A stretch of 64,000 nucleotides of DNA, from the NCBI GenBank assembly GCA_041879295.1, contig CP047152.1, positions 2,113,501 through 2,177,500 of the forward strand. Reading direction: 5' to 3'. Below the pieces are notes generated by a model, which was not told the origin of the DNA, searched no databases, and saw only the letters and a program-made list of their open reading frames with translations. The stretch is from Pseudomonas putida (GTDB lineage Bacteria > Pseudomonadota > Gammaproteobacteria > Pseudomonadales > Pseudomonadaceae). Shown in pieces: positions 9,693 to 62,309 of the stretch. A program made the position numbers and the translations under genes. How positions within the stretch are numbered: position 1 is the first letter of the stretch; each line of letters begins with the position of its first letter.

Positions 9693-9703
9693 TCAACGAA
9701 GTT

Positions 9704-46756: not shown

Positions 46757-47104
46757 CAAAAACCTCATGACGAACAACTCCAGGCCCCACCGAACCCAAC
46801 GCCATGATCGTCCGCTTCGGGTCCAGGCTGCGCACCGGACGTTTTCACACAGCCTGGGTCGATAGCCGCAAACCGCACCTGACCGCATTCGACCCTTCGC
46901 AGCCGTTCGAGGTGTCCAGGATACCTGTGGCGATTCAAATCAACGGCCAGGGGCGGCCTCCGAAGTCAGCGCTAATCAGGACGGGACAACTATCCGTCGA
47001 GTCAATATGGCCTAGTTCGAAGTCGCAATCTTGGTTCTGTCAGGCAGGGCCATGCATCACTACAGTGGGCACCGACAACACCTTTCCACTGCGAGCAACT
47101 ACCC
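46757..47104. other. Intergenic region with degenerate dispersed repeat and a regulator motif
   Basis: No gene is seen. It carries GTCCGCTTCGGGTC (46810-46823) and CTGGGTCGATAGCCGC (46853-46868), members of the dispersed GGGTCG family, and the motif ATGGCCTAGTTC at 47007-47018 that also occurs in front of the MocR-type regulator. Confidence 0.5.
47011..47018. promoter_or_regulatory. CCTAGTTC motif before the AhpD-like gene
   Basis: ATGGCCTAGTTC followed after 15 bases by TCTTGG. The same two blocks, in the same order and similar spacing, occur at 49009-49035. Confidence 0.45.
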
Positions 47105-47584
47105 ATGAAAAGCCGTATCGATTACTTCAAACTGTCCCCCCAGGCGTCCAACAAGTTGGTGGACCTTACCCTGCACCTGAGCAAGAAGCCGCTACTGGCC
47201 GAGCTTGCTCACCTCGTCATGCTTCGGGCGTCCCAGCTTAATGGCTGTGCGTTCTGCGTGGACATGCATGTGAAAGAGGCCAAGATTCATGGCGAGCGCG
47301 AGTTGCGTCTTCACCACGTTGCCGTCTGGCGTGAGTCGCAGCTGTTCTCGCCTGTCGAGCGCGCCGCGCTGGAGTGGGCCGAAGCTCTGACCCAGTTGCC
47401 ACCCCATGGCATTCCTGAAAGCTTGTATGCGAAGGTGCGTGAACACTTTTCGGAACAGGACTTGTCGGATTTGACGTTCCTGATCGTCGCGATCAATGGT
47501 TGGAATCGCCTGAACGTGGCCTTTCAGGCGATCCCGGGTTCGTCCGATGAGGCATTCGGTTTGACCAAGGCCAACCTCAACTGA
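47105..47584 (+). CDS. AhpD-like carboxymuconolactone-decarboxylase-family protein
   Basis: A 159-residue protein with the redox motif CAFCVDMHVKEA of AhpD-like peroxidase-associated proteins and the conserved EAL..ERAALEWAEALT segment. Such proteins reduce alkylhydroperoxides or act on electrophiles. The start has only a weak ribosome site. It converges on the MocR-type gene, overlapping its end by 8 bases, and carries a copy of the presumed operator 86 bp upstream. A paralogue lies at 50283. Confidence 0.85.
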   Translation: MKSRIDYFKLSPQASNKLVDLTLHLSKKPLLAELAHLVMLRASQLNGCAFCVDMHVKEAKIHGERELRLHHVAVWRESQLFSPVERAALEWAEALTQLPPHGIPESLYAKVREHFSEQDLSDLTFLIVAINGWNRLNVAFQAIPGSSDEAFGLTKANLN

Positions 47585-49010
47585 GCATCTTGCTGATCAA
47601 AGCGCCAAGCTGCTCGCTTTGGGCAGCCGTGGCGCAGTTTGTAAAGCTCAGCAGCAGCCCCGAATGACGTTGAGACGATAAATACCAGCGCGACAATGCC
47701 TGTACCGACACGCCCCTTGCCAACAATTGCTCGGCCAGGGCCGTGTCGCTTGTCTCTTCTGGTAGACGCAGCAGCAAATGCATGCCGCCTGGGGAGCGAT
47801 CAACCTGAATGTGCTTCGGCAAACTTCGTTCCAGCGCTTCAATGGTCATCACTCGTCGTTCGTTATAGAGCCGGCGCATGCGCTGGATATGGCGGGTGAA
47901 ATGACCCTCTGCGATGAACTCCGCCACCAGGGCCTGGGTAATCGATGGTGAACCGGCGGAAAATAACGTCCGACCCACGCGTTCAAACGCCGCTACCTGC
48001 GCCTGGGGCACCACCAAGTAAGCCAGGCGGATACCGGGAAACAGCACCTTGCTGAATGTGCCGGCATACAGAACCCTCCCATTGCGATCCAGACTGGCGA
48101 GCGCCGGAAGCGGACGACTGACATAGCGATACTCGCTGTCGTAGTCGTCCTCGACAATCCAGGCGCCGGTGCGGGCCGCCCAATCCAGGAGCAGCTGCCG
48201 TCGAGGCAGCGATAAGGCCATTGACAGCGGGCTCTGATGCCCCGGTGTAACCGTGGCTACCTGCGCAGGCTTGGACGTAGCGATAGCCTGTTCCACATTC
48301 ATACCATCACCATCAACCGGGACTGCCTCCAAGTCCATCCCGAACTGGCGAAGTACCTGGCGCGTAATGGGATAACCCGGGTCTTCCACCCACGCGCGCT
48401 CGCATGACTGCAACAACGTCTGAGCGACGAAGGACAGGCTGTTTCGCCAACCACTCGTGATAAATACCTGATGGGCACCGCAATCGATACCTCGGGACAT
48501 CTGCAAATACGAGGCGATGGCGCTGCGCAATGCCGGCAGACCGTGGGGCGCCGGATAATCCAGATCGCCCAGACGCATGCCGCGTAGATATCGAGCACCG
48601 AGACGTGCCCATATCTTTCGCGGAAATGCATCCATTGCGGGCACACCCATCTGGAACGGCAAAAGCTGGAGCGGTCGACGTATGGAGTCAGAATCGTCTG
48701 TAACCTCCAGCGTAGGGGGCATTGCGCTGACCGCCCTTTCAGGCGTGCGCAACTCGGGATTGACCACTGTGCCTCTCTGCCCGAGCGCCAGTAGGTAGCC
48801 CTCACTGGTCAGTAAAGAATAGGCAAGTTCGACGGTGCCGCGCGCAACACCTAATTCCTTTGACATGGCACGCGCGGACGGCAAGCGATCACCGGGAGAC
48901 AGGGTGCCGGCAGCGATAGCGGTCAGCACTCGGTGGTAGAGCTGACGATACAAAGGAGAGCTGGATAGCTCATCCAGAGGCGCGAAAGGAGGCGAAGAAG
49001 AATTCGTCAT
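47577..49010 (-). CDS. MocR/PdxR-type GntR regulator with aminotransferase domain
   Basis: A 477-residue regulator. N-terminal winged helix (LYHRVLTAIAAGTLSPGDRLPSARAMSKELGVARGTVELAYSLL) joined to a class-I aminotransferase-like domain with HQSPLSMALSLPRRQLLLDWA, EDDYDSEYRY and the PLP lysine in YAGTFSKVLFPGIRLAY. Effector is normally a PLP-linked ligand. Divergent from a GNAT gene; direct repeats CCTAGTTC lie between, typical of the tandem sites MocR proteins bind. Confidence 0.9.
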   Translation of the reverse strand: MTNSSSPPFAPLDELSSSPLYRQLYHRVLTAIAAGTLSPGDRLPSARAMSKELGVARGTVELAYSLLTSEGYLLALGQRGTVVNPELRTPERAVSAMPPTLEVTDDSDSIRRPLQLLPFQMGVPAMDAFPRKIWARLGARYLRGMRLGDLDYPAPHGLPALRSAIASYLQMSRGIDCGAHQVFITSGWRNSLSFVAQTLLQSCERAWVEDPGYPITRQVLRQFGMDLEAVPVDGDGMNVEQAIATSKPAQVATVTPGHQSPLSMALSLPRRQLLLDWAARTGAWIVEDDYDSEYRYVSRPLPALASLDRNGRVLYAGTFSKVLFPGIRLAYLVVPQAQVAAFERVGRTLFSAGSPSITQALVAEFIAEGHFTRHIQRMRRLYNERRVMTIEALERSLPKHIQVDRSPGGMHLLLRLPEETSDTALAEQLLARGVSVQALSRWYLSSQRHSGLLLSFTNCATAAQSEQLGALISKMLS

Positions 49011-49012
49011 GG

Positions 49013-49064
49013 CCTAGTTCATATTCCATTTCTTGGCTCAATCAAGTGGGCTAATCCTAGTTCA
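49013..49064. promoter_or_regulatory. Direct repeats CCTAGTTCA, likely MocR operator
   Basis: CCTAGTTCA at 49013-49021 and 49056-49064 in direct orientation, 43 bp apart (about four helical turns), in the gap between the regulator and the GNAT gene. A third CCTAGTTC precedes the AhpD-like gene at 47011. Confidence 0.55.
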
Positions 49065-49101
49065 AGATAGCGCCATCACCTACTGGCAGAGGCTGGCTTT
49101 C

Positions 49102-49584
49102 ATGACACTCACTCCTCACCAATTTGTACCCAGCGTGCTTGATCTGGCTGACGCCAACCTGCGCCCTCTGGATACCTCTCACGACCTGCACGCCGCGTTT
49201 CCGGTGATGCAGCAATTGCGCCCCCACCTGGCTAGCGAAGCCGACTTCATCAGTCGTGTCGAGCGTATGCGCACCGAGGGATATCTTCTGGTTGGTGCCT
49301 TCGACTCAGGCAGTCTGGTGGCGCTGGCTGGTTACCGCCTCCAGGAGAATCTGGTCTACGGCACATTTCTGTATGTCGACGATCTCATAACCGCTGAAAC
49401 CCAGCGAGGTCATCAATGGGGAGCGCGGTTATTGAAGGCCTTGGAGCGGTTGGCGCGCGCCAGTGGCTGTGCCCGCCTTGTGCTTGATACCGGTTTGGCC
49501 AACGCCCGAGCCCAACGCTTCTACTCCCGTGAAGGCCTGCATAACAGTGCACTGCGCTTTCAAAAACAGTTCGACGCACCATGA
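49102..49584 (+). CDS. GNAT-family N-acetyltransferase
   Basis: A 160-residue acetyltransferase with acetyl-CoA site VDDLITAETQRGHQWGARLLKALE and the C-terminal LDTGLANARAQRFYSREGL. The ATG at 49102 has AGAGG upstream. First of a run with the azoreductase-like and AhpD-like genes; probably under the divergent MocR-type regulator. Confidence 0.85.
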   Translation: MTLTPHQFVPSVLDLADANLRPLDTSHDLHAAFPVMQQLRPHLASEADFISRVERMRTEGYLLVGAFDSGSLVALAGYRLQENLVYGTFLYVDDLITAETQRGHQWGARLLKALERLARASGCARLVLDTGLANARAQRFYSREGLHNSALRFQKQFDAP

Positions 49585-49614
49585 CTCTCGCCGTTATCAA
49601 ACTGAGGCAATTAC

Positions 49615-50286
49615 ATGACTTCCCAGAAGCAGCCAATTGTTCCGTTGAGAGTTCTTCGCCTGGTCGCCAGCCCCAATGGTGACAGTTCGGAAAGTCTCAA
49701 ACTGTCCCAACAAATTCTGTTTGCCTTGGCCCTCCATGCTGGCAGACGCGGTATCGAAGTGACGGATTTCGATCTCCACACATTAGCTCCAGTCGATGCC
49801 TCATACGCTCAGACTCTGGCCAATCAGCGAGCGGTCTCAGCGGGAGAACAAGAGGGGACGCTGAACCGTTCGAACGCACTCATCAATCAATTGCAGGAGT
49901 GCGACGTACTGCTGATTGCCACTCCAATGCACAACTACAGCGTGCCCGCCCCGCTCAAGGCCTGGATTGACCATGTAGTGCGCGTGGGCAAGACGTTCCT
50001 GAGCACCAGCGGAGGGAAGGTCGGTACGTTGGTGGATCGACCGGTCTATGTCGCCATTGCTTCCGGTGGCTACATCAATGGGCCGAGTGCCCGACAGCCC
50101 GACTTTCTGCGCCCCTACCTGACCGCCGTCCTTGCGACCATCGGCCTCAACCAAGTGCATTACTTCAGCGTTGAAGGTACTGCCAAGGGAAAGGCGTCCC
50201 TGGATGCTGCTAGAGAGCGTGGATACGGTGAGGTACAGGCTTTCTTCTCCAGTGTCACTAACGCTTTGCAAGGACAACGCCTATGA
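49615..50286 (+). CDS. FMN-dependent NADH-azoreductase-like flavodoxin-fold enzyme
   Basis: A 223-residue oxidoreductase. VLRLVASPNGDSSESLKLS is the FMN phosphate loop; ATPMHNYSVPAPLKAWIDHVVRVGKTF and the later IASGGYINGP block follow the AzoR pattern. Family members reduce quinones and azo compounds with NAD(P)H. 30 bp after the GNAT gene and overlapping the AhpD-like gene by four bases. Confidence 0.85.
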   Translation: MTSQKQPIVPLRVLRLVASPNGDSSESLKLSQQILFALALHAGRRGIEVTDFDLHTLAPVDASYAQTLANQRAVSAGEQEGTLNRSNALINQLQECDVLLIATPMHNYSVPAPLKAWIDHVVRVGKTFLSTSGGKVGTLVDRPVYVAIASGGYINGPSARQPDFLRPYLTAVLATIGLNQVHYFSVEGTAKGKASLDAARERGYGEVQAFFSSVTNALQGQRL

Positions 50287-50732
50287 GTCGCCTCAATTGG
50301 TTTGCAGCATCGCCCGGCGCCGCCAAGGCCCTCGGGGGACTGCATCATTTCGTAACCACTGGGACAGACCTGCCGGCTCCATTGATCCATCTGGTTTTTC
50401 TCAGGGTTTCTCAACTCAACGGTTGCGCACATTGTATTGATCTGCATTCACGTGATTTGATCAAAGAAGGCATGTCGGTGGACAAACTGCTGCTGATACC
50501 GGTGTGGCATGAGGCGCAGTATCTGTTCTCGGAGCAAGAGCGCTCGGCATTGGCCTGGGCTGAGGAAGTCACGCGGGTAAGTGAAACTCACGTCTCTGAT
50601 GAAGCATATGCAGCCGCATCGGCGGTATTTGCAGAAAAGGATCTGGTCGACCTGACAACGGCGATTGCCGCAATGAACGCTTTCAACCGTATGGGCGTCA
50701 GTTTCCGTGTACGGCCTGCTGCCAAGGCGTGA
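50283..50732 (+). CDS. AhpD-like carboxymuconolactone-decarboxylase-family protein (second copy)
   Basis: A 149-residue paralogue of the protein at 47105, with CAHCIDLHSRDLIKEG and ERSALAWAEEVT. ATGA overlap with the azoreductase-like gene gives translational coupling. The pair flanking one regulator suggests a common electrophile or peroxide substrate. Confidence 0.86.
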   Translation: MSRLNWFAASPGAAKALGGLHHFVTTGTDLPAPLIHLVFLRVSQLNGCAHCIDLHSRDLIKEGMSVDKLLLIPVWHEAQYLFSEQERSALAWAEEVTRVSETHVSDEAYAAASAVFAEKDLVDLTTAIAAMNAFNRMGVSFRVRPAAKA

Positions 50733-50985
50733 TGGCTATGTTGGGGCCGCGCAGCGGCCTTGACCAAGATGTCTGCAATGGGTTGATTGCGGTCAGTTGC
50801 GGTTTTCCGCTATCGACCCTTACCAGAAATTGACAGCTGTCCTCTTCCCGGTTCGTTGCTTGTGCACGACTTTCTCATGCGTCGCTGAAAATGCAGGACT
50901 AGTGGAAAACCACCCAGCGAGTGCACAATAACTGTGCCCACGCAGCGCGGAGTTTTTCCGGCCATCTTTCGTCACAGGAGTGAGC

Positions 50986-51459
50986 ATGAAAGAACACAGT
51001 TATGCTGTCACCGTAAATTGGATAGGCAACACGGGTGATGGTACTGCCAGCTACACGGCATACCAGAGAGACTTCAATGTGGAAGCTCCAGGCAAAGCAC
51101 CTATCCTTGGCTCCGCCGACCCTGCCTTTCGCGGAAATCCCGAACGCTGGAACCCGGAAGACATGTTGCTGGCCTCGATCTCGGCTTGTCACAAGCTTTG
51201 GTATCTTCATTTGTGCGCAGTCAACAATGTGAACGTATTGGAATACGTCGACCACCCGATGGGCCGGATGGTTGAAGCTGACGGCCAGCGCAAAGGCCAT
51301 TTCAAGAACGCAGAGTTAAGGCCTTCGGTCATCATTAGCAACGAATCGGATCTGGATCTGGCAAAACGTCTCCATGACGATGCTCACCATGAGTGTTTTA
51401 TTGCCAATTCGGTCAACTTCCCCATCACATGCAGTGCTGTTGTCAAGCATCGAAACTAG
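50986..51459 (+). CDS. OsmC-family peroxide-reductase-like protein
   Basis: A 157-residue OsmC/YhfA-type protein. WNPEDMLLASISACHKLWYLHLCA carries the first catalytic cysteine; the second is in HHECFIANSVNFP. Family members reduce organic hydroperoxides. AGGAG lies 5 bases before the ATG at 50986. It follows the MocR-linked genes after a 253-bp gap that holds only a degenerate repeat. Confidence 0.87.
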   Translation: MKEHSYAVTVNWIGNTGDGTASYTAYQRDFNVEAPGKAPILGSADPAFRGNPERWNPEDMLLASISACHKLWYLHLCAVNNVNVLEYVDHPMGRMVEADGQRKGHFKNAELRPSVIISNESDLDLAKRLHDDAHHECFIANSVNFPITCSAVVKHRN

Positions 51460-51545
51460 ATCTTTTGCGCGCACTGGCTGCGGCTCTGATCTGATCGTAC
51501 GGTACTCAATTCCCGGCCCCTGGGCGCGACTAGTATTGAGGCAAG

Positions 51546-51604
51546 TGTCCACTATGGGTCGGTAGTAGCCGATCGCGACAGCCCGCCATCGACCCAAACG
51601 GATA
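51546..51604. repeat. Degenerate dispersed repeat (GGGTCG type)
   Basis: TGTCCACTATGGGTCGGTAG ... CATCGACCCAAACGGA, an imperfect inverted unit. Related sequences occur at 46810, 50790, 52560, 54211 and 54770. Confidence 0.5.
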
Positions 51605-51707
51605 TTGCCGGTCTTTTTGGTCCGATTCGAGGCAGGCGAGCAGGATGGTTCATATTTTTACAGATGCTTGGCATCATAAGGTCTTTATGACCCACCGAAG
51701 GATCACC

Positions 51708-52304
51708 ATGCTGCGCATTCTGCTTGTGTTAGCAGTGCCACTAACCATCACCGCCTGTTCAGGTAGCGTTTACCAGTATGAGAGTCCTGAGGCTAGGCAC
51801 CAGATGAAACAAGACTTGAAATTGAACACCATCATCGACTCTTCGAGAATGAACTGGTGCCTTCATCCATACGGCAGCGCTCCCGGGTGCAAGCCTGAAA
51901 AGGGAATTGGCATCGTCACACCGGATGCTCTGGTGATGGCCCATTTTGTCAATGGCCAGTATGTACTGGACCGCGTTCTCAGATCCAAAGATGTCCTCTG
52001 CTCAACCGTCCCGGGCGGAAGAGCTGCGAATGGCATTTTTTTTGCTTTTACGGCCTCTGACGCATACATGCTGGGACCACTGCAAGCAGACCGAGATGAG
52101 ATCAACACTCGCTTCAAAAGCCGAATGTTTGATTACTTGCACAGTGATGGACAACAAAGCTTCAGCGGGCCGGAGATAAACTTCCAAAGGCCTTCCGGAG
52201 TAAAAGTAAGGAAGACAACGATTGCTCCAGCTGGTCCGTCTACCTTGATTTTGAATGACATGGTTGATGTGCTGGAGGTCTATAGCCCATGCTCACATAC
52301 GTAA
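51708..52304 (+). CDS. Hypothetical lipoprotein, 198 residues
   Basis: Signal peptide MLRILLVLAVPLTITAC with the lipid cysteine at 17. The mature domain contains several further cysteines (NWCLHPYG, APGCKPEKG, DVLCSTVPGG, YSPCSHT), so disulfides are likely in the periplasm. AAGGA precedes the ATG at 51708. No recognised family. Base composition is lower in GC than core genes here, consistent with acquired DNA. Confidence 0.65.
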   Translation: MLRILLVLAVPLTITACSGSVYQYESPEARHQMKQDLKLNTIIDSSRMNWCLHPYGSAPGCKPEKGIGIVTPDALVMAHFVNGQYVLDRVLRSKDVLCSTVPGGRAANGIFFAFTASDAYMLGPLQADRDEINTRFKSRMFDYLHSDGQQSFSGPEINFQRPSGVKVRKTTIAPAGPSTLILNDMVDVLEVYSPCSHT

Positions 52305-52328
52305 GTTGAGGGAGGACGCCGACGACAC

Positions 52329-52460
52329 CTATCCCTGAAAGTGCGTGATCTGGTGAGGGCGTTGATACCGTGTATCGACCACAGCATTGCTCATACGGAA
52401 CCACTTGAACTTCTCAGGGCGGTCGCCCAGGTTCAGGGCCCTTTGCTCGGCGTACTCTTG
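52329..52460 (-). pseudogene. C-terminal fragment of an unidentified gene
   Basis: The gap 52305-52704 has no intact gene. On the minus strand an open piece reads AEQRALNLGDRPEKFKWFRM and ends DTRYQRPHQITHFQG before TAG; an in-frame TAA closes it upstream. It reads like real protein but is headless. Family not recognised. A GGGTCG-type repeat follows at 52560. Confidence 0.35.
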
Positions 52461-52704
52461 TTAGGAGCGTTGGGATTTTAAATGCCGTCGCTGGCCCAGG
52501 AGCCAAAACCATAGGCCGCCGAACTTGCTTTGGGCGCTTAGATACTCATCCTGAAGGGCAACTATGGGTCGTTAGCTGCCTGCAATGAAGGGCAGCTTCC
52601 GGCCAACAGCAGTCATTAGCCGCCGAAAAGCTAGGCCACCGGCCACGTCATTCAGCGCAGAGCTAGACTGAGCCCAGTATTCTGAATCGCTAATGGTGGT
52701 TCCC

Positions 52705-53286
52705 ATGAAGCACTGGCTTCCCCTGCTGCTCACCCTGCCTCTGTCGCACACCCAAGCTGCGGGACCTGCCTTCAACTGCACTCAGGTCGAGGCCGGCAGC
52801 ATCGAACAACAGATCTGCCAGAGCGAGCCGCTCTCGGCACTGGACCGGAAAATGGCCGAGGTCTACACAGCCGCGCAGCAGAAGGCCGGCAATGAACATC
52901 CGCCGGTGCTCAAGACCGAGCAACGGGGCTGGATCAAAGGCCGCAACGATTGCTGGAAAAGCGCGGACCAGCCCGCCTGCATCGCCGACAGCTACCGCCT
53001 GCGCATCGCCGAACTGCAGGCGCGCTACCGGCTGGTCGAGGCCACCGGCCCGGTGTTCTACCAGTGTGACGGCAACCCGGCCAAGGAAGTGGTTGCCCGC
53101 TTCTTCCGCACCGAGCCGCCCACGGCCATCGTCGAGTTCGGTGACCGCAGTTCGCTGATGTACCTAGAACAGACCGCAAGCGGCGCGCGCTACCAGGGAC
53201 AAAATGAGAGTTTATGGGAGCACCATGGCGAGGCCATCGTGGTGTGGGGCTATCAGGAGCCGGAAATGCACTGCACAGCGCGTTGA
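52705..53286 (+). CDS. Periplasmic LprI (DUF1311)-MliC lysozyme-inhibitor fusion
   Basis: A 193-residue exported protein. After the signal peptide (to about residue 20) comes an LprI/DUF1311 domain with FNCTQVEAGSIEQQICQSEPLSALDRKMAEVY and RGWIKGRNDC; from about residue 110 an MliC-like beta-barrel follows (VFYQCDGNPAKEVVARFF, ASGARYQGQNESLWEHHGEA). Both domains are known to inhibit lysozymes, so the protein probably guards peptidoglycan against host or rival lysozymes. Confidence 0.75.
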   Translation: MKHWLPLLLTLPLSHTQAAGPAFNCTQVEAGSIEQQICQSEPLSALDRKMAEVYTAAQQKAGNEHPPVLKTEQRGWIKGRNDCWKSADQPACIADSYRLRIAELQARYRLVEATGPVFYQCDGNPAKEVVARFFRTEPPTAIVEFGDRSSLMYLEQTASGARYQGQNESLWEHHGEAIVVWGYQEPEMHCTAR

Positions 53287-53402
53287 AAGCCGCCGCTATG
53301 ACCCATTGCAGAAATTCTCCAGGGGTAGCTATCGGCCAATATCGAACTTTGATGTGGTCCGCCACGAGGACATCATCCAGAACACAGGCGCGCCCTGCTT
53401 CC

Positions 53403-54158
53403 TTAAAGCTGCATTACGGCGAGCGCCCTGCGCAGAGGCTCGTCGGATATCTGGATAGGACCGTGAAATGGTACGTCCATATCCAATACCAGATACACGG
53501 AGGCCGCGATAAGCATTGAAGAAACGACGAACATTCCTGTCACCATTGAATTACGTGGCGCTCGGTATCCAAAACTGGCGAAAATGAGCGTCAACCACGC
53601 AACCAGCATCCCAATGAGTGGGCCGGGAATTGCCCCCTCTGACTGCTCGACGATCCTCCAGCGTTGCTCGATAAGCGAATGATATTGCTGACGAATATCC
53701 TGAAGCATAGTTTCATGGTAGCGGTCCGGCGGCTTTATGGCAGCCAAAGATTTCCCTATGTCATCCAAGTATTTAGCTGCCTCGCTGTTACGATGTTGCA
53801 GCGCCTCGTCCCCCCGGTATGGCGTCTCGATAGCGTGCTCAAGATAGGTGACCAGTCGGTTGCGGGTGTCTTGTGCCGATTCGCCATAGCCCCGCAGTGT
53901 CCGATCAAATATGATCATGCTGGTTGCATACCCATGAAAGTTAGCGTCAATGGACTCGAAGGTATTTTTGGCAGAATTGATCATCAATCCAAAGACCAGC
54001 GATGTCATAACCACAAAAATGTTAGCTACCAGGCGAATCACTGTATTTGTGTCTTCGTCTCTGTGGTGGGATGCCAGCTTTGGGTACCACTGCATCATGA
54101 GAAGCGAGGCGGCAACCAAGCACCCAAAAATGGCCACTGCGATCCAGAGAGAATTCAT
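53403..54158 (-). CDS. DUF4239 membrane protein (bestrophin-like)
   Basis: A 251-residue protein with two membrane segments at the N terminus (WIAVAIFGCLVAASLLMM, LVANIFVVMTSLVFGLMI) and two near the C terminus (LIGMLVAWLTLIFASFGY, GMFVVSSMLIAASVYLVLDM), separated by a long soluble helical region. This layout and FGLMINSAKNTF fit the DUF4239 family. Function unknown; convergent with the lysozyme-inhibitor gene. Confidence 0.75.
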   Translation of the reverse strand: MNSLWIAVAIFGCLVAASLLMMQWYPKLASHHRDEDTNTVIRLVANIFVVMTSLVFGLMINSAKNTFESIDANFHGYATSMIIFDRTLRGYGESAQDTRNRLVTYLEHAIETPYRGDEALQHRNSEAAKYLDDIGKSLAAIKPPDRYHETMLQDIRQQYHSLIEQRWRIVEQSEGAIPGPLIGMLVAWLTLIFASFGYRAPRNSMVTGMFVVSSMLIAASVYLVLDMDVPFHGPIQISDEPLRRALAVMQL

Positions 54159-54210
54159 GCATCAAGGCCTCGATCAATCTGACTCAAGTCTTAAAAGATA
54201 GACCGTGGCC

Positions 54211-54270
54211 GACCGCTTTGGGTCGGTTGCAGCCATTCGCGAGTGACCGCTAACGACCCAAAGCGGACAT
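54211..54270. repeat. Inverted GGGTCG-type repeat, best-preserved copy
   Basis: GACCGCTTTGGGTCGG at one end and AACGACCCAAAGCGGAC at the other, arms of about 15 bp around 28 bases. Lies between divergently placed orphan genes. Confidence 0.7.
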
Positions 54271-54337
54271 CTACATACTCTGATTGACTAAGCTATCGCC
54301 CACCGCACGATGGTGATCAACACTCGGACTTGAACGA

Positions 54338-54703
54338 ATGACAGACAATCCTTTCCGTATTCCAACGGATGCTGAAATTGCTGACGCAGAGAGCAGGCTC
54401 AATTTTCGCTTTCCCGATGAATACATCCGCTTCCTGAAAGGTGGCAGCGATGTCGCAAACGCCGCATTTGAACCAGCGGTGATTTTGGGGGGATGCAGCC
54501 ATCTGGATATCTTTGAAATTACCGAAGCCGCCTGGGCCCAAGGCGTTCCTCGAGATTGGTTGCCTTTCATTGAAGACAACAGCGACTACTTCTGCATATC
54601 GCGGGCTGGTGTTGTCCGGTACTGGTCACACAACGGAAGCACAAACGAAAGTTGGCCAACCTTTGCCGCCTGGTTCAAACAGGTCTGTATAGCCCTTGAG
54701 TAG
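54338..54703 (+). CDS. SMI1/KNR4-family protein
   Basis: A 121-residue protein with NPFRIPTDAEIADAESRLNFRFPDEYIRFLKGGSD and DWLPFIEDNSDYFCI, the SMI1/KNR4 (SUKH) pattern. SUKH proteins are often immunity proteins against contact-dependent or secreted toxins; no partner toxin lies in the window, so this may be an orphan immunity gene. No clear ribosome site. Confidence 0.8.
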   Translation: MTDNPFRIPTDAEIADAESRLNFRFPDEYIRFLKGGSDVANAAFEPAVILGGCSHLDIFEITEAAWAQGVPRDWLPFIEDNSDYFCISRAGVVRYWSHNGSTNESWPTFAAWFKQVCIALE

Positions 54704-54932
54704 CGTCTGTACGATATCTGCAACCCGTACCAAATGTTCGATTCTGGCCGAACACTGCCTTTCGTCCCCGGCAGCTATGGGTCGACAGCGGACTGTGGGA
54801 GGTGGATGTAGCTGACGACCAGGACAGATCTTGGTTGGCAGAACGCTTGGATGGGGGAGTAAAGCTGTCTAAAACCGCCCGAAAGCGTCTCGGTTTTATT
54901 GGGCCAAAGTCGCTGAAACTGGCTGAACCGTA
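54704..54932. other. Non-coding stretch with degenerate repeat and hairpin
   Basis: No gene seen. Contains GCAGCTATGGGTCGACAGCGGA at 54770-54791 (GGGTCG-type repeat) and an AAAACCG/CGGTTTT hairpin near 54870-54897 that may end transcription from either side. Confidence 0.4.
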
Positions 54933-55241
54933 TTAGACAGGCCAGATGGTCCACCAGGCGGTCAAGACTCGGAAGGTAAAAGGGAGCAGCCCGAGGATCG
55001 CGACGATTGCGCGCAGACTCGGCCCTTTCGAGGCAGGCAGAGACCAGGCCCGCCGGACCCATCGCGGGCATCCAACGCCGAGCGCTATAGTTGTCACAAG
55101 CGCCCACTGGAGTAACTGCCAGTACAGTGTGTAAAGGCTGGCAGAAGTACTGTTCAGCCCAACTGATTGAAGCCCAGCCCCGCGCTGGGTTTTTGCATTC
55201 ATGCGACGCCATGAGGCGCTTGTGATAGCAGGGCCGGGCAT
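54933..55241 (-). CDS. Possible small membrane protein downstream of the PL7 gene
   Basis: A 102-codon frame that starts 6 bases after the PL7 stop, so coupling is possible. The product would have two hydrophobic stretches (LYWQLLQWALVTTIALGVG and AIVAILGLLPFTFRVLTAWW). Against it: no ribosome site, no family, and a plus-strand terminator hairpin (55172) inside the frame. A holin-like role would fit a prophage remnant but is a guess. Confidence 0.3.
   Translation of the reverse strand: MPGPAITSASWRRMNAKTQRGAGLQSVGLNSTSASLYTLYWQLLQWALVTTIALGVGCPRWVRRAWSLPASKGPSLRAIVAILGLLPFTFRVLTAWWTIWPV
55172..55195 (+). terminator. Terminator-like hairpin
   Basis: CCCAG-CCCCGCG-CTGGG followed by TTTTT on the plus strand. 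No plus-strand gene is evident upstream; it may end an RNA covering roughly 55050-55190. Confidence 0.5.
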
Positions 55242-55247
55242 CGACGT

Positions 55248-55922
55248 TCAGCGGTGGATGAGCGAGAGCTCGCTGATGATGCAGATTGAGCCGTCCTCGA
55301 CGGGTGTTGCGTCGGTGTAATCGACCTGGTTGTAGACCCCGCCGTGGAACTCGAACAGGTGTGAAGCCCAGGTGCTGTCGAGCTGCAAATTGCCCGACGA
55401 GGCGGTTACCCCGTTGCATTCGGCCGTCACGGTTACCACGCCTTCAGACGTGGTGTGAAGGCTGATGTGGAACGTCGCACCCAGTGGCACCCCCTTCAGG
55501 ACTGTGGAATTCACCGGGTCGGTCTGGTTGAAGGTTCGCCGAAACCCCAGGGTGATGTTGCCCTTGTTCCAGAACACCTTTACCGGCGGGCCGTCATCCC
55601 CGCGTACGTGCATCTGGGCAATGACCACCTTCTGCGCGGAGTTGACCTTGGTCAGCGTCATGGTCTGGCGATTCCAGTGATTCTGGGCGCTGGCCAGCGT
55701 CCAGTCATGCGTTTCTGTCCATTCGCAGCGTGTCCTGTGGGTGCTTTTGCTCGAAGCACCTTTGGTGGGGGCTGAGAACTGGATCGAGCCATCGCTGAGC
55801 ACCGTCACGATGCTGGGAAAGCGGGCAATCGCTTCAGCACCGTTTAGCTCCAGAGCAACGGGATTGGTTGAGGAGACGGCTACCGGTGTGGCAATGGTGA
55901 GGTTGCTGATATCTACGGCCAT
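55248..55922 (-). CDS. Polysaccharide lyase family 7 (alginate lyase-like) protein
   Basis: A 224-residue beta-jelly-roll protein. The PL7 landmarks are recognisable though varied: HRTRCEWTE for the R-E-R strand, VIAQMHV for QIH, and HLFEFHGGVYNQ for YFKAGVYNQ. PL7 enzymes cleave alginate by beta-elimination. No signal peptide (MAVDISNLTI), so secretion or release by lysis is needed if it acts outside. AGGAG precedes the ATG. Two palindromes of the repressor type (TTAGC-N5-GCTAA, one with a mismatch) lie 66-105 bp upstream, placing it in a prophage-like control circuit. Confidence 0.8.
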   Translation of the reverse strand: MAVDISNLTIATPVAVSSTNPVALELNGAEAIARFPSIVTVLSDGSIQFSAPTKGASSKSTHRTRCEWTETHDWTLASAQNHWNRQTMTLTKVNSAQKVVIAQMHVRGDDGPPVKVFWNKGNITLGFRRTFNQTDPVNSTVLKGVPLGATFHISLHTTSEGVVTVTAECNGVTASSGNLQLDSTWASHLFEFHGGVYNQVDYTDATPVEDGSICIISELSLIHR

Positions 55923-55987
55923 GGGGAACTCCTGGCGAAAGGGTTTGAGTGGTAGAGCAGCCGTGCAAATGGCTGCTGAACACAAAG

Positions 55988-56027
55988 TTAGCCCACGGCT
56001 AAAATCAAATCAATAGCTTTGGGCTAA
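55988..56027. promoter_or_regulatory. Paired repressor operators TTAGC-N5-GCTAA
   Basis: Exact site at 55988-56002 and a second with one mismatch (ATAGC-TTTGG-GCTAA) at 56013-56027, 25 bp apart, between the PL7 gene and the DUF1654 gene. The same palindrome occurs upstream of the S24 repressor. Confidence 0.65.
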
Positions 56028-56155
56028 AATAATTTCGCTTTGGGGGTATGTTACCTATTGGCGAAATTTTTAGCGGTGGGGCTTTACGCTGTATTTGGCG
56101 GTGAGATAAGCTTTCGCTGAGCACTGTACGAATATACAGCTATCAGGATAAGAAT

Positions 56156-56479
56156 ATGTCTAGGCACATGCAGTCGGAACCTCAACAGCGCCAGGAAATG
56201 ACTGGAATAGAGCGGCTTAGCCTGCGGGTATCGTCAATGATCAACCACCCGCTCGCGCAGACGCAGCGTTGGGTAGTGGTGCACCGCCTGGATAACGACG
56301 GTGAAGCGGAATGGGAGGAGGTGATGGGCCAGTTGCGGGAAACGCCCGAGTTGCAGCTGACGTTTAATGATGACGCTAGCGTGACGGTGCGATGGGCGCG
56401 CAGCAGCGTGGAAGAGCGTGATGATTTTGTCGTCGAGCGCGACTGCGAGGTGCAGGTCGAGGAGGCGGCTCCTTTCTGA
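56156..56479 (+). CDS. DUF1654 protein
   Basis: A 107-residue protein with ERLSLRVSSMINHPLAQTQRWVVVHRLD and WEEVMGQLRETPELQLTFNDDASVTVRW, the DUF1654 pattern common in Pseudomonas phage and prophage-like loci. AGGATAAG lies before the ATG. Divergent from the PL7 gene, convergent with the repressor gene. Function unknown. Confidence 0.8.
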   Translation: MSRHMQSEPQQRQEMTGIERLSLRVSSMINHPLAQTQRWVVVHRLDNDGEAEWEEVMGQLRETPELQLTFNDDASVTVRWARSSVEERDDFVVERDCEVQVEEAAPF

Positions 56480-56490
56480 ACTTCAGCAAA

Positions 56491-56512
56491 AGCCCGCCGG
56501 TCAGGGCGGGCT
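56491..56512. terminator. Bidirectional terminator between DUF1654 and repressor genes
   Basis: Stem AGCCCGCC/GGCGGGCT with a 6-base loop between two convergent stop codons; T run better on the minus strand. Confidence 0.75.
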
Positions 56513-56517
56513 TCGGT

Positions 56518-57342
56518 TTATACCAGGTGGGCATTCCACACCAGGAGGACCCTGGCCTGTATGTAGGTCTCTTCCCGACGAATCATGCGATCTTTGTGCC
56601 GCGAGTTGTCGGAGATCATTTCGAAGTGGTCCTCGTCCGCGATCTGTAACCGCTTGATGTAGATGTGGTCGCCCCAGGAAAAGAAGTAGATGCCATCGCC
56701 GACGAACTCTCGGATGCTGACATCGACGATCAGCGGGTCGCGGTGCCTGATGGTTGGCTCCATCGACTGACCCCAGCCGGTCACCATCTTCAGGTGATAG
56801 TGCTCGCTGAACTCTACGCCCAGCTCGCGCAGGTGGCTGGGGCTGACGCGAACGTCCTTGAACATCTCAGGGTAGTCGTGGGGTATCTGGCCGCCGCCCA
56901 TGGCAGCCCGCACGTCATAGTGGGCAATCCACACTTCGTCACCGACCAGGCCGGGGCGAAGCGGCTCGGCTTTCAGCAGCGTGGCATCTGCAGGCTCTTG
57001 CGCAGCTGCCAGCAGCCTTTGCCGGGTTTCTTCAGAAATCCCTTTGCCGCTTCGGGCAAGCATCTGCTTGACCAGGTCGGCTGCGGAGAGCCTGTTATCA
57101 CCTGACTCGACTGCCGCTTGCACGTGTTCGCCTGGTGACAGTGCGTCGAACCAGCCCCGTGGCAAGCCTTCGATGCCCTCGATGCGGCGGGCCACGTCAT
57201 CGCCCAGGTTTTTCACGGTCTTGTCGGAAAGAATCTGGCTCAGGTGTGCAGGCGCCATCCCCCAGCGCTCTGCGCAGGTGCCCTTTCTCTGGCTGCCGAT
57301 CAGTTTCACCAGGTTGTGCTTGCGAATTTGGTAAATGTCCAT
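56518..57342 (-). CDS. Phage-type repressor: HTH plus S24 (LexA-like) peptidase
   Basis: A 274-residue CI/PrtR-like repressor. N-terminal helix-turn-helix region IRKHNLVKLIGSQRKGTCAERWGMAPAHLSQILS; C-terminal S24 domain with the catalytic serine in TGWGQSMEPTI and lysine in HIYIKRLQI. Such repressors self-cleave when RecA is activated by DNA damage. Start uncertain between 57342 and 57354 (MLHPMD). Its upstream region has two perfect TTAGC-N5-GCTAA sites and one degenerate site, so it very likely regulates itself. Confidence 0.88.
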   Translation of the reverse strand: MDIYQIRKHNLVKLIGSQRKGTCAERWGMAPAHLSQILSDKTVKNLGDDVARRIEGIEGLPRGWFDALSPGEHVQAAVESGDNRLSAADLVKQMLARSGKGISEETRQRLLAAAQEPADATLLKAEPLRPGLVGDEVWIAHYDVRAAMGGGQIPHDYPEMFKDVRVSPSHLRELGVEFSEHYHLKMVTGWGQSMEPTIRHRDPLIVDVSIREFVGDGIYFFSWGDHIYIKRLQIADEDHFEMISDNSRHKDRMIRREETYIQARVLLVWNAHLV

Positions 57343-57362
57343 GGGGTGAAGCATGCCAGTGT

Positions 57363-57427
57363 TTAGCTTGCTGCTAAATGTGCGCACGGCTAAATCTGCT
57401 CTTGTAGTAATGTTAGCTGTAGGCTAA
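57363..57427. promoter_or_regulatory. Operator array of the S24 repressor
   Basis: TTAGC-TTGCT-GCTAA at 57363-57377, a degenerate TGTGC-GCACG-GCTAA at 57379-57393, and TTAGC-TGTAG-GCTAA at 57413-57427. Placement just upstream of the repressor and 80 bp before the plus-strand holin-like gene suits divergent lambda-OR-type control. Confidence 0.7.
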
Positions 57428-57506
57428 ATTAAACGCGCGAACAAGGAAAGCTATCGAGACATTTTTCTCCAGGGCTGATCACACCATCATCTGTAATGAG
57501 GTTCAC

Positions 57507-57845
57507 ATGGATCCGACCGACCTCGGCCCGGGCACCGTCACTTGGTTGGGCGGTACGGGGACTGTACTGCTAGGTGCGTTTCTTTGGCTGCGCAAGTGGT
57601 TGTCCCGCGATGCAGTCGACCGTGCGATGGACAATGCCGAGATTGCAGTCATCCGTCGTCTGACAGAACTCCTGGATATCGAACGGGACGCCCGAAGAGA
57701 GGCGCAGGCAAAAGCTGATCTGCTGACCAAGGAACGAAACGAGCTGGTGATGACCGTGGGCCGGCTGCAGGGCAAGGTCATGGTGCTGACCAGTCAGCTG
57801 GGCAGTAGCGGCCGAACACGAGGTGGCAACCCCGGCAATCCGTGA
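57507..57845 (+). CDS. Small prophage-type membrane/coiled-coil protein (holin-like position)
   Basis: A 112-residue protein with one membrane segment (VTWLGGTGTVLLGAFLWL) followed by a charged coiled coil (LLDIERDARREAQAKADLLTKERNELV) and a Gly/Asn-rich tail. TGAGGT precedes the ATG. Proteins of this kind occur in lysis or early regions of Pseudomonas prophages. Divergent from the repressor across the operator array. Confidence 0.65.
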   Translation: MDPTDLGPGTVTWLGGTGTVLLGAFLWLRKWLSRDAVDRAMDNAEIAVIRRLTELLDIERDARREAQAKADLLTKERNELVMTVGRLQGKVMVLTSQLGSSGRTRGGNPGNP

Positions 57846-57913: not shown

Positions 57914-58096
57914 TCAGGCAGCCAAGGTGCCTGGCTGCAACTGTTCGGCCAGTGCCCGGGCTGAGGCGAGCGTCGGCATCGGGCCGCTGACGGCTTCACC
58001 GTTGCGAACCAGGTACCAGCACGCCAGCAGGCCCTGCTCACGCAGTGAGGCGGGAACGGCGCTACCGACAACGGACATGATCTGGATAGTGGCCAT
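57914..58096 (-). CDS. Small conserved hypothetical protein, 60 residues
   Basis: MATIQIMSVVGSAVPASLRE..., with WYLVRNGEAVSGPMPTLASARALAEQL. AGGAGGT lies 5 bases before the ATG and a strong terminator follows, so it is a real short transcription unit. No family recognised. Confidence 0.65.
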   Translation of the reverse strand: MATIQIMSVVGSAVPASLREQGLLACWYLVRNGEAVSGPMPTLASARALAEQLQPGTLAA

Positions 58097-58330
58097 GGGG
58101 ACCTCCTGTGAAACATGGCTTCACCATACGCAGCAGCCGGGGCTGTTTGAAATTAACTTCCTCGATAGTGATCATTGGTTCTATCAACCGTTACCACGTC
58201 CGGCCTTGTTACTTTGACTCCGTTGTTTGTCAACCGAGCACAGTGAAGCGGTAAAGGTTGTGTCAGGGGCGACCAGTGGCTGACTCTGTTACGCTGGATA
58301 AACGTTTCAGTCATGACTAAGGAGCCTGTT

Positions 58331-59152
58331 ATGCCGACAACTCCAAGCCGGGACACCGTGCTTTGCATCTCTCTGGCCGGTCGCCCGGGGACCTTCGGTG
58401 TGCGCTTTCACAACCACCTGTACCAGCAGCTGGGCCTGGACTTCTACTACAAGGCCATGCGCACCGATGACCTGCCGGCGGCGGTGGCAGGGATCCGCGC
58501 TTTGGGTATTCGCGGCTGTGGGGTGTCGATGCCCTACAAGGAAGCCTGCATGGCTTTGGTCGATGAAATCGATCCCTCGGCGGCGGCCATTGAGTCGGTC
58601 AATACCCTTGTCAACTGCAATGGCCACCTGAAGGCTTACAACACCGATTACCTGGCCGTGCGCCAATTGCTGGTGCAGCACCAGGTCGATCCGGGCACTG
58701 CGTTTGCCCTGCGAGGCAGCGGGGGCATGGCCAAGGCCGTGGCCAGCGCCTTGCGCGATGCCGGCTTTGCCGAAGGCATTATCGTTGCACGCAACGAGCA
58801 GGCCGGGCGTCAGTTGGCGGATGTCTGTGGTTATCGCTGGATGCCTGAGCCTGGCGATATCTGCCCGCCGATGCTGGTAAACGTGACGCCGATCGGTATG
58901 GCAGGCGGGCAGGAGGCAGATGAGCTGGCGTTTCCCGAGCACGCCATCGCGGCGGCGGAGCGGCTGTTCGATGTGGTGGCGATGCCGGCGCAGACGCCGC
59001 TGATTCGTCGGGCTCAGGCGTTGGGCAAGCCGGTGATCACTGGGCTGGAGGTCATAGCGTTGCAGGCGCTGGAACAGTTTGTGTTGTACACCGGGGTAAG
59101 GCCATCGCAGGAGCAGGTGGATGCGGCTGTGGCGTACGCGCGCGCTATCTAG
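58331..59152 (+). CDS. Shikimate dehydrogenase-like protein
   Basis: A 273-residue AroE-family protein with GVSMPYKEACM and NTDYLAVRQLL for shikimate binding, and the NAD(P) loop RGSGGMAKAVASALRDAG, where AroE usually has GAGG. The divergent loop and the short N-terminal extension point to an AroE paralogue rather than the housekeeping enzyme; substrate unknown. AAGGAG precedes the ATG at 58331. Confidence 0.82.
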   Translation: MPTTPSRDTVLCISLAGRPGTFGVRFHNHLYQQLGLDFYYKAMRTDDLPAAVAGIRALGIRGCGVSMPYKEACMALVDEIDPSAAAIESVNTLVNCNGHLKAYNTDYLAVRQLLVQHQVDPGTAFALRGSGGMAKAVASALRDAGFAEGIIVARNEQAGRQLADVCGYRWMPEPGDICPPMLVNVTPIGMAGGQEADELAFPEHAIAAAERLFDVVAMPAQTPLIRRAQALGKPVITGLEVIALQALEQFVLYTGVRPSQEQVDAAVAYARAI

Positions 59153-59546: not shown

Positions 59547-60074
59547 TCAGCCTTTGAGCTCGGTTGGCTGGATTACTTCGACCCAGTAACCGTCCGGGTC
59601 CTTGACGAAGGCCAGGTGGTTCATGCGCCCGTCTTGCAGGCGTTTCTGGAACGGTACTTCCAGTTCCTCGAAGCGCGCGCAAGCGGCGCGTACGTCGGGT
59701 ACCGAAATGCAGATATGGCCAAAGCCGCGTGGATCGGTGTTGCCATTGTGGTAGGCGAACTCGGCATCGTTTTCGGTGCCATGGTTGTGGGTCAGCTCCA
59801 GCACGCCGGGGATCGACTTCATCCACTGGTGGCGGGCGTTGTCATCAGCGGGGATCTGTGCCGGGTCGACCAGGGCCAGGAAGTACAGGCTGAAAGCGGC
59901 TTCAGGGAAGTCACGCTTGTCCACCAGGCGGAAGCCCAGCACGCGGGTGTAGAAGTCCAGCGACTTCTCGATGTCCTTGACCCGCAGCATGGTGTGGTTG
60001 AAGACGAACTGGGCGGTGGCGGCGTCAGGTTGTGCGGTGACGCCAGGCAGGGTTTGCAGATCGTGCAGGCTCAT
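59547..60074 (-). CDS. gloA: Lactoylglutathione lyase (glyoxalase I)
   Basis: A 175-residue glyoxalase I converting the methylglyoxal-glutathione hemithioacetal to S-lactoylglutathione. Metal ligands His in FNHTMLR, Glu in LELTHN, His in GHICISV and Glu in WVEVIQP. AGGAG precedes the ATG at 60074. Length matches the long zinc-type pseudomonad GloA. Confidence 0.93.
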   Translation of the reverse strand: MSLHDLQTLPGVTAQPDAATAQFVFNHTMLRVKDIEKSLDFYTRVLGFRLVDKRDFPEAAFSLYFLALVDPAQIPADDNARHQWMKSIPGVLELTHNHGTENDAEFAYHNGNTDPRGFGHICISVPDVRAACARFEELEVPFQKRLQDGRMNHLAFVKDPDGYWVEVIQPTELKG

Positions 60075-60298
60075 GGGAACTCCTGAGACGGGGCCGGGCG
60101 CAAGGCGCCGGCAAAACAGACAGGCTGGCCATGATACGGCAGTGCGACGATTGCGCAAATGAAAGCGCCCTGCAAAGGCAGGGCGCTGAAATTAGAGGCC
60201 CGCATGTGCGGGCGCGTGATGGGGTCGCTAATCCTTTAGCTGTTTCGATACTGAGCCAGTCCTTGTGAAAAAAGTGTGAAGCCTGTGTGCACATTTCA

Positions 60299-60658: not shown

Positions 60659-61007
60659 TGTAATCACTCCTGTACGTCAGTCGTGGCAGGGCGTGACGAA
60701 CATTGAAGAAGAGTAAAAACGCCGGCCACGCAGGTGGGTTCCACTGTTCGCTGATATCGAGTGTAGTCATTCATGGCTACTGGGTAAACTGCTAACTTTT
60801 TGTAAGTAATCCGGGAACTTTCCCAGTTTTGCGGGCGATATTTTGCAGTTTTTCTGCGGTTGCGCGACCGGATGCCTAGACCATGGTCCAATGGCCCGCA
60901 CCAGAGCCTTTGCGCGATCATTTCAGATGATGGCCGACCCATGTTCGGACCTGCCGCAGTGCCGTGGCCAGCCTGTGCCACAGGTTGTTAACTCGTCTTC
61001 ATTCTGG

Positions 61008-62309
61008 ATGTTTCCTCGCATGTTTTCCCCTTTCCCCCTCGCTCCCGGGCGCCGTGTTACCGGCCTGTTTCTATTGTGTGCCGGTGTCAACGCCCAGGCT
61101 GCCGGGTTTCTTGAAGACAGCAGTGCCAGGGTCGAAGCACGCAATGTCTATTTCAACCGGGACTTCCGGGACGGTTACAGCAGTTCCAGCCAGGGCGCAT
61201 CCAAGCGCGAAGAGTGGGCACAAGGCTTCATCCTCAATGTGCAATCGGGTTATACGCAAGGCCCGGTAGGTTTCGGTGTGGATGCGCTGGGCATGTTCGG
61301 CTTCAAACTGGATTCCAGCCCGGCCGACAGTAACAGTGGGTTACTGCCCTCGTCCGGTCACGATCCCCGGCACTCGGCCGACCAGTATGCGAAGATGGGC
61401 CTGGCGGCCAAGGTCAAGGTCTCCAGTACTGTGCTGAAGTACGGCTCAATGATGCCGGATGTGCCGTTGCTCAAGTACAACGATGGCCGTCTGCTCCCGA
61501 CCCTGTTCCAGGGTGCCATGCTCACCTCCGAAGAACTGCACGACCTGAAGTTCACCCTGGCTCGCCTGGACAAATACACGGCTCGGGATTCCACCGACCG
61601 CCAGGACATCCGCGTGCATTGCAAGAACAAGCGTTATGCTTGCGGTACCGAAGCCGACCACTTCGACCTGGCCGGTGTCGACTATCGCTTCAACGAGCGT
61701 TTCAGCGCTCAGTACCAAGTGGCCAGGCTGGAGAACATCTATCGCCAGCACTTTCTCGGGCTGGTGGCCAGTCAACCGCTGGCGGTGGGCAGCCTGTCGG
61801 CTGACTTACGGCTGATCAAAAGTGATGACATCGGCAATGCCCGTGCGGGCGAAATCGACCATCGCGCCTTCAGCGGCATGTTTGGCTACAGCGTCGGTGG
61901 CCACAAGATCAGCGCCGGCTGGCAACGCATGTATGGCAATAGCGCCATGCCGTACCTGGATGGCAGCAACCCGTATCTGGTCAACTACGCCCAGGTCAAT
62001 GATTTCGCCGCTGCCCAGGAGCGCTCCTGGCAAGTACGCTACGACTACGACTTCAAGGCGCTGGGTGTGCCCGGCCTGACCTTCTTCACCCGTTACATCA
62101 ACGGCGACAATATCAAGGTGCCGGGCAGCCGTGCCGAAGGCAAGGAGTGGGAACGCGACACCGAGTTCAAGTACCAGGTACAAAGTGGCACTTTCAAGGA
62201 TGTCAGCGTACGCCTGCGTAACTCCACCTACCGCAGTAACTATGAAAAGTGGGCGCGTGACATGGATGAGACGCGGGTCATTGTAAGTTACAATTTCTCG
62301 CTGTTCTAG
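61008..62309 (+). CDS. OprD-family outer-membrane porin
   Basis: A porin of about 433 residues with signal peptide ending NAQA|AG, then the OprD-family start GFLEDSSARVEARNVYFNRDF and features KVKVSSTVLKYGSMMPDVPLL, GAMLTSEELHDLKFTLARLDKY and the terminal RVIVSYNFSLF with C-terminal Phe. It admits amino acids, peptides or aromatic acids; the substrate cannot be told. Start at ATG 61008 or 61020; the ribosome site is weak. The open frame upstream to 60843 is not part of the gene. Confidence 0.9.
   Translation: MFPRMFSPFPLAPGRRVTGLFLLCAGVNAQAAGFLEDSSARVEARNVYFNRDFRDGYSSSSQGASKREEWAQGFILNVQSGYTQGPVGFGVDALGMFGFKLDSSPADSNSGLLPSSGHDPRHSADQYAKMGLAAKVKVSSTVLKYGSMMPDVPLLKYNDGRLLPTLFQGAMLTSEELHDLKFTLARLDKYTARDSTDRQDIRVHCKNKRYACGTEADHFDLAGVDYRFNERFSAQYQVARLENIYRQHFLGLVASQPLAVGSLSADLRLIKSDDIGNARAGEIDHRAFSGMFGYSVGGHKISAGWQRMYGNSAMPYLDGSNPYLVNYAQVNDFAAAQERSWQVRYDYDFKALGVPGLTFFTRYINGDNIKVPGSRAEGKEWERDTEFKYQVQSGTFKDVSVRLRNSTYRSNYEKWARDMDETRVIVSYNFSLF

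Follow-up and report, generated by a model that had tools for sequence, protein, structure and literature searches.

A compact PL7 lyase module, probably reduced from a lambda-like prophage immunity region, in Pseudomonas putida

Anatomy of the locus

The window analysed here, a stretch of 64,000 nucleotides of Pseudomonas putida DNA, contains a compact module of four genes encoding a polysaccharide lyase of family PL7, a small DUF1654 protein, a CI-like repressor with an S24 domain and a holin-like protein, together with palindromic sites and a LexA-type (SOS) box (Table 1). For the repressor and PL7 genes, the ATG codons at 57342 and 55922, respectively, were adopted rather than the starts of the longest open reading frames. 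The original prediction had viewed the locus as an S24-repressor regulon of phage origin, reduced to a small module and kept by the host, a view that is supported by the anatomy described here and by the conservation of the module in relatives.

Table 1. Features of the module, in window coordinates. Counts of modules refer to the window together with 13 relatives.
Feature	Position	Strand	Description
PL7 gene	55248..55922	-	224 aa; alginate-lyase 2 family; first gene of the 'left' operon
Predicted promoter PL of PL7	55985..56013	-	-35 TTGATT, 17-bp spacer, -10 TAACTT; operator in the spacer and over the -10
Operator OL1	55988..56002		TTAGC-N5-GCTAA; exact in 14/14 modules
Operator OL2	56013..56027		ATAGC-N5-GCTAA, one mismatch; AATAGC half in 13/14 modules, GCTAAA half in 14/14
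Predicted DUF1654 promoter	56083..56110	+	TTTACG, 16 bp, GATAAG; consensus reading only
LexA-type (SOS) box	56124..56139		CTGTACGAATATACAG; 32 bp 5' of the DUF1654 ATG
DUF1654 gene	56156..56479	+	107 aa; acidic tail ...EEAAPF; PF07867 at 7e-31
S24-type (CI-like) repressor gene	56518..57342	-	274 aa; DNA-binding part at the N terminus, then a linker containing AAMGGG and the S24 domain
Repressor-side operator	57363..57377		TTAGC-N5-GCTAA; exact in 14/14 modules
Degenerate middle operator	57379..57393		two mismatches, one half-site
Predicted promoter PR of the holin-like gene	57402..57430	+	-35 TTGTAG, 17 bp, -10 TAAATT
Operator within predicted PR	57413..57427		TTAGC-N5-GCTAA; exact in 11/12 modules retaining the holin-like gene
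Holin-like gene	57507..57845	+	112 aa; first gene of the 'right' operon; phrog_2658 'hol-like chemotaxis' at 1e-33

The three exact TTAGC-N5-GCTAA palindromes announced at 55988, 57363 and 57413, the near copy at 56013 and the degenerate copy at 57379 are all present, and exact copies average 0.00 when the window is dinucleotide-shuffled 100 times. In the whole genome (G000; 6,050,864 bases in three contigs), the exact palindrome occurs only at these three sites, all in the module and spanning 1440 bases, rather than hundreds of times at random positions; as a control, the reversed pattern gives two sites in the same genome. The number of palindromes is ordinary, since about 3.05 are expected by chance in 6.05 Mb at the 60% GC of the window. 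Their clustering, unlike their number, is beyond chance, the probability of three sites falling within 1.5 kb being about 2e-7. The palindromes are operators of phage origin; as sites, they flank the S24 gene on both sides, and we infer that the repressor would bind them. The original prediction of a promoter shared by the PL7 and DUF1654 genes needs correction: the pair at 55988 and 56013 lies on the predicted PL7 promoter, and DUF1654, with a separate predicted promoter of its own, is not chiefly under the palindromes.

Conservation of the module in relatives

Relatives of the PL7 gene are present in 74 of 398 Pseudomonas genomes, at 79 places counting that of the window. Of the 78 others, 60 were examined with their wide surroundings, and locus L145 was added later. 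The compact module was found in 13 of the 60 loci, i.e., 14 with the window. The geometry of PL enclosing OL1 is retained in 13 of the 14 modules (the exception being L060), with the hexamer TTGACN in 12 relatives, and that of PR around its operator, including TAAATT, in all 12 modules with the holin-like gene. The PR operator has decayed in both modules without this gene (L070 and L073).

A gene resembling shikimate dehydrogenase flanks the module in 11 of the 13 relatives (it was not seen in L054 and L057). A scan of named genomes (42 loci) detected the compact module in 12 records, including P. putida W15Oct28 and NBRC 14671, P. hunanensis, P. monteilii, P. juntendi, P. inefficax and P. pudica; eight of the 12 are probably the same assemblies as relatives already counted, and four are new (L298, L301, L302 and L314, the last being NBRC 14671). 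In these 12 records, the PL7 gene always adjoins OL, and only L302 has no holin-like gene, leaving 11 with it. Ten have the shikimate-dehydrogenase-like gene and eight a pbpG-like gene within the 5-kb flank, the names of flanking genes having been assigned by eye. That the module occupies a common site among host genes speaks for its vertical inheritance.

The median dN/dS ratios are 0.08 for the S24 gene, 0.15 for the holin-like gene, 0.17 for PL7 and 0.20 for DUF1654 (the last set including the L066 copy, taken as 136 residues long where about 107 is usual), indicating purifying selection on all four genes. These values bear on the idea that the locus is a functionless, decaying prophage scar still bearing operators. 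Such a scar could account for the variable gene content on the PL7-distal side, the absence of an endolysin gene in the window and the loss of the holin-like gene in L070, L073 and the named record L302. Nevertheless, the low dN/dS of all four genes and the retention of operators and promoters in 14 modules, despite variable N5 centres of the operators, make this explanation improbable.

Phage origin of the repressor and operators

The Pseudomonas aeruginosa phage AUS531phi encodes a repressor 45% identical to the S24 protein of the window and carries the same palindromes, 49 bp apart, beside the repressor gene, with a third one before a DUF1654 gene. Among 17 loci examined, 12 are prophage-like and contain both S24 and DUF1654 genes (L137-L146, L148 and L149). 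In 11 of these 12 stretches, there are exact copies of the operator as well as an exact LexA-type box at the DUF1654 gene, a figure that describes them and gives no rate, because most were chosen for holding operator pairs; L149 has neither. Other combinations also occur: the phages L094 and L095 have a different DNA-binding domain and lack these operators while keeping the LexA-type box, L077 has the box and no exact operator, and L147 and L040 have operators and a distant S24 gene with no DUF1654.

The PL7 gene follows OL also in the prophage-like stretches L148 and L145. In L148, from genome G245, which includes replication and terminase genes, PL7 is located at OL and the holin-like gene near TerL, so that the module of the window appears to derive from such a phage by deletion; no junction could be mapped. 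In another prophage-like stretch, L139, the S24 repressor is split across two open reading frames (9493-10244).

The immunity region of phage lambda has the layout PL-OL-cI-OR-PR, in which PL drives N and PR drives cro. The module of the window resembles it in the leftward PL at OL, the leftward repressor gene, the rightward PR at OR and the operators placed inside the predicted core promoters. It differs by the presence of PL7 instead of N, of the holin-like gene instead of cro and of DUF1654 at the position of rex, and by the lack of any replication, structural or integrase gene within or next to it. By this arrangement, the four genes of the module are probably what is left of an immunity region of the lambda type.

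The repressor and the DUF1654 protein

The repressor (PF00717 at 1e-17; phrog_4) retains the catalytic residues Ser193 and Lys230, which are invariant in the 14 aligned S24 sequences. LexA and lambda CI cut themselves at Ala-Gly, and the rule for self-cleavage is Ala-Gly or Cys-Gly. The expected cleavage site of the window repressor is Met-Gly. In a survey of 96 loci, obtained by a looser search and from added loci (91 with S24, two of them unresolved, and five without), the residue before the glycine is Met in 88 and Leu in one of the 89 resolved proteins. Because Met-Gly replaces Ala-Gly, self-cleavage of S24 is uncertain, and the DUF1654 protein may instead be the damage input, acting as an antirepressor.

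The LexA-type box ahead of DUF1654, overlooked in the original prediction, is present in its exact form, CTGT-N8-ACAG, in 13 of the 14 modules. We extended the comparison to a viral sample made of the best 80 of 527 DUF1654 relatives listed, some of which (e.g., L150-L154) resemble the compact module itself. The motif CTG-N10-CAG lies 18-33 bp before the chosen start in 79 of the 80 loci (17 exact boxes and 62 of the variant CTGG-N8-ACAG), and the remaining contig begins within the site. An S24 repressor of this type is encoded within the locus in 74 of the 80. In named genomes, DUF1654 is close to S24 in 41 of 42 loci, with a CTGT or CTGG box in 38 of the 41. The family is also widespread outside this setting, being found in 129 of 149 Pseudomonas genomes searched. 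The 30 best-scoring tail-less copies from these 129 genomes, here termed chromosomal (the context was viewed for one, L241), are all preceded by an exact box. By its box, DUF1654 is probably a gene with an SOS-type promoter, for which LexA-dependent induction is predicted, and two damage inputs to the module are therefore possible. In the literature passages covered, the function of DUF1654 is called unknown.

A LexA-controlled antirepressor, which would be a sub-mechanism of damage induction of the module, would bind the C-terminal domain of uncleaved S24 and lift the repressor off the DNA; we see this role for DUF1654 as a real possibility, somewhat short of an even one. It agrees with the boxes upstream of DUF1654, the frequent company of an S24 repressor and the presence of Met or Leu before the glycine in every resolved protein. 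Moreover, across 71 loci, the mean distance is 0.50 for the N-terminal domain of S24 vs 0.20 for its C-terminal domain and 0.20 for DUF1654. There are precedents in the Gifsy phages and coliphage 186: LexA-controlled antirepressors of Salmonella Gifsy phages inactivate uncleaved repressors that lack a bipartite structure (PMC3121763). The window resembles Gifsy GfoA/GftA, 186 Tum and N15 AntC (PMC3121763) in that a phage repressor gene is accompanied by a small gene bearing a LexA-type box. DUF1654 is, by comparison, only a putative antirepressor, and its partner keeps the S24 domain, with Ser193 and Lys230 invariant, whereas the Gifsy repressors lack that domain (PMC3121763). In addition, the distance matrices do not favour a pairing of DUF1654 with the C-terminal over the N-terminal domain (Spearman 0.34 vs 0.41), the box is the inexact CTGG variant in most of the viral loci, and the family is common in genomes at large, the tail-less copy viewed being next to no repressor.

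The tail of the DUF1654 protein raises a second explanation, which we consider rather doubtful: DUF1654 could be an SOS accessory protein whose acidic tail ending in PF mimics that of SSB and competes for SSB partners (RecO, RecQ, PriA and others), tuning RecA loading and affecting the switch only indirectly. In 77 of the 80 phage-type proteins, acidic residues are followed by a terminal PF, and the tail is predicted to be disordered (pLDDT below 50 at residues 87-102). The C-terminal tail of SSB is DDDIPF (PMC5872125). This is a resemblance only, and a fold search with DUF1654 retrieved no confident relative. All 30 tail-less proteins terminate in KED or KDD, so the tail is not a requirement across the family.

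The same genome encodes a second DUF1654 protein of 80 aa (L241; G000:C1:3561026-3561235), which lacks the PF tail and has its own exact LexA-type box; its gene sits between asparaginase-like and endonuclease-I-like genes, as identified by eye. In two viral contigs (L151/L159 and L153/L215), one end is occupied by what resembles the compact module and another DUF1654 gene is found elsewhere, as if a prophage of a different immunity type adjoined the module.

The PL7 lyase

The PL7 protein matches PF08787 at 7e-47 and phrog_31475 at 435 bits. Its AlphaFold model (pLDDT 90.9) has a jelly-roll fold, and the top Foldseek match in the PDB is the P. aeruginosa alginate lyase PA1167 (1vav_A, E 1.7e-16, TM 0.82). 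In alignment with the Sphingomonas lyase A1-II', residues R65, Q103, H105 and Y197 correspond to the active-site Arg, Gln, His and Tyr, and they are invariant in 13 sequences including that of the window. Arg, Gln, His and Tyr are the catalytic residues of PL7 lyases, and H191 and Y284 are also named in the titles of structure entries. Despite this shared fold and active site, the window protein is only 22-24% identical to PA1167 and A1-II', reads RCEWT at the RSELR motif, has no signal peptide evident by eye (in agreement with what had been predicted) and is placed under phage operators. It is predicted to cut alginate or another uronate exopolysaccharide. Relatives are encoded in 12 phage records, the best being that of phage Psa21 (56%).

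Outside the module, an exact LexA-type box is located at most 230 bp 5' of PL7 in 5 of 47 loci, vs 0.1 expected (P 5e-8, a value that overstates independence since three of the five, L062-L064, are similar upstream). These boxes lie 120-171 bp 5' of PL7 in L062, L063, L064, L068 and L072, with no S24 gene nearby, which suggests that in a few species PL7 is controlled by DNA damage through another route than the module. Such control is not general for the PL7 family, because 42 of the 47 loci have no exact box and 42 of the 60 loci examined have no S24 match. The latter count, together with the spread of PL7 relatives among Pseudomonas genomes, would fit a lyase that serves ordinary nutrition or biofilm turnover and belongs to the regulon incidentally. 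We judge this unlikely, considering the position of PL7 after OL in the prophage-like L148 and L145, the lack of an evident signal peptide and the boxes at the five other loci.

A conserved, possibly structured leader was also observed within about 100 bp 5' of PL7 genes outside compact modules (L059, L062, L063, L064 and L077), consisting of a GATGCGG...CGCATC-like hairpin followed by roughly GGTTGGAAGGCAATCGTGCCAGGCCAATGAT.

The holin-like protein and associated lysis genes

The holin-like protein has one N-terminal hydrophobic stretch followed by a likely coiled coil; by hydropathy window alone, the best 19-residue mean is 1.36, at residues 10-28. A relative in phage phiPSA1, annotated 'hol-like chemotaxis', is encoded before the terminase gene. 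In most prophage-like loci examined, the holin-like gene is followed by one for a second small membrane-type protein (phrog_6065 in the one copy scanned). An endolysin gene lies behind the holin-like gene in the compact modules of G390, G057, G072, one viral contig, P. pudica and P. inefficax (the record of the latter and G072 being probably one assembly); the G057 endolysin belongs to phrog_90 (2.6e-47).

Encoded beside PL7, the holin-like protein could let the lyase out of the cell. The original prediction had proposed for this role a small membrane protein starting at either 57507 or 54933. The former is the holin-like gene; the latter is no part of the module, and its role as a partner is not supported, as it has no tblastn match (E <= 1e-4, 40% of length) in the PL7 loci of the 60 relatives.

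Proposed mechanism and comparison with known systems

We consider it probable that the locus is a lambda-like prophage immunity region that has been cut down and kept by the host, and that it drives the production of PL7 and the holin-like protein upon DNA damage. The S24 repressor would hold the operators inside both early promoters, PL driving PL7 and PR the holin-like protein (plus the endolysin in some relatives). Upon DNA damage, activated RecA would promote the cleavage of LexA, and DUF1654 would be made from its own LexA-controlled promoter. Once S24 repression is lost, through self-cleavage or inhibition by DUF1654, PL and PR would fire; the holin-like protein would then breach the membrane in some cells, and the escaping cytosolic PL7 could cut uronate exopolysaccharide around siblings, presumably to their benefit.

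Several observations weigh against this scenario. Besides the Met-Gly site of the repressor, the many PL7 loci with neither box nor S24 match and the modules lacking the holin-like gene, a generic promoter scan listed neither PL nor PR. The label 'holin' itself is based on the position in phages, one modest hydrophobic stretch and a PHROG of category 'other', and is best taken as provisional. Only 3 of the 12 modules with the holin-like gene have an endolysin; the window module has none, and its genome has no homologue at E <= 0.001, other endolysin types not having been searched for. For lysis, a different endolysin would consequently be required, unless the holin-like protein suffices by itself; with the window version, and no help from another endolysin, cells may undergo depolarisation only.

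The Alp self-lysis pathway of P. aeruginosa seems to be the nearest analogue. The damage-responsive repressor of the AlpR-AlpA-AlpBCDE system controls genes that include a putative holin (PMC7969949). Compared by description, both systems are chromosomal, have prophage features and place a repressor over a holin-type gene. The Alp pathway works through an antiterminator, AlpA, and has several lysis genes, whereas the operators of the window sit on two output promoters, whose outputs include a polysaccharide lyase, and a separate gene has a LexA-type box. No AlpA antiterminator is encoded between the repressor and the holin-like gene, where there are only 164 bp (the genome elsewhere was not searched for AlpA). 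In the explosive lysis of P. aeruginosa biofilms by Hol/Lys, a fraction of the cells is burst by holins together with an endolysin, which sets free material active in the matrix (PMC8131026). The window module differs in lacking an endolysin, and the enzyme released would cut polysaccharide, whereas Hol/Lys releases DNA.

More tentatively, and with slightly less confidence than in the antirepressor role itself, DUF1654 might define a previously undescribed kind of switch for prophage induction in Pseudomonas: a small LexA-controlled protein, its acidic PF tail resembling that of SSB, would sense damage on behalf of a family of S24 repressors lacking the usual Ala-Gly site. Species of the P. 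putida type would have domesticated this switch into a damage-triggered module to 'lyse and dissolve the matrix'. If the proposed mechanism is true, it would link the DNA-damage response to the release of a matrix-degrading enzyme, a new output of a domesticated phage switch in pseudomonads. The DUF1654 finding opens a large group of Pseudomonas prophages to tests of antirepressor-type induction, and the LexA-type box combined with non-standard repressor sites offers a first functional handle on this almost unstudied family. Among the open-access papers listed, we found no description of such a module, and novelty is provisional since subscription literature was mostly outside the scope; the alginate-lyase passages of PMC5587285 and PMC12066637 do not describe it.

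Surroundings of the module

In most relatives, the right flank contains, as named by eye, genes for shikimate dehydrogenase (58313-59152 in the window), a glyoxalase (59547-60158) and a porin (60843-62309). Beside the module, an open reading frame of 60 aa (57914-58096, minus strand) is 88-93% conserved in 11 of the 12 named relatives. On the other side, some 9 kb (46300-55200) separate the module from the pbpG-like gene. This interval, which includes SUKH (54338), bestrophin-like (53403) and, by eye, MocR-like (47577) genes, is much shorter in several relatives.

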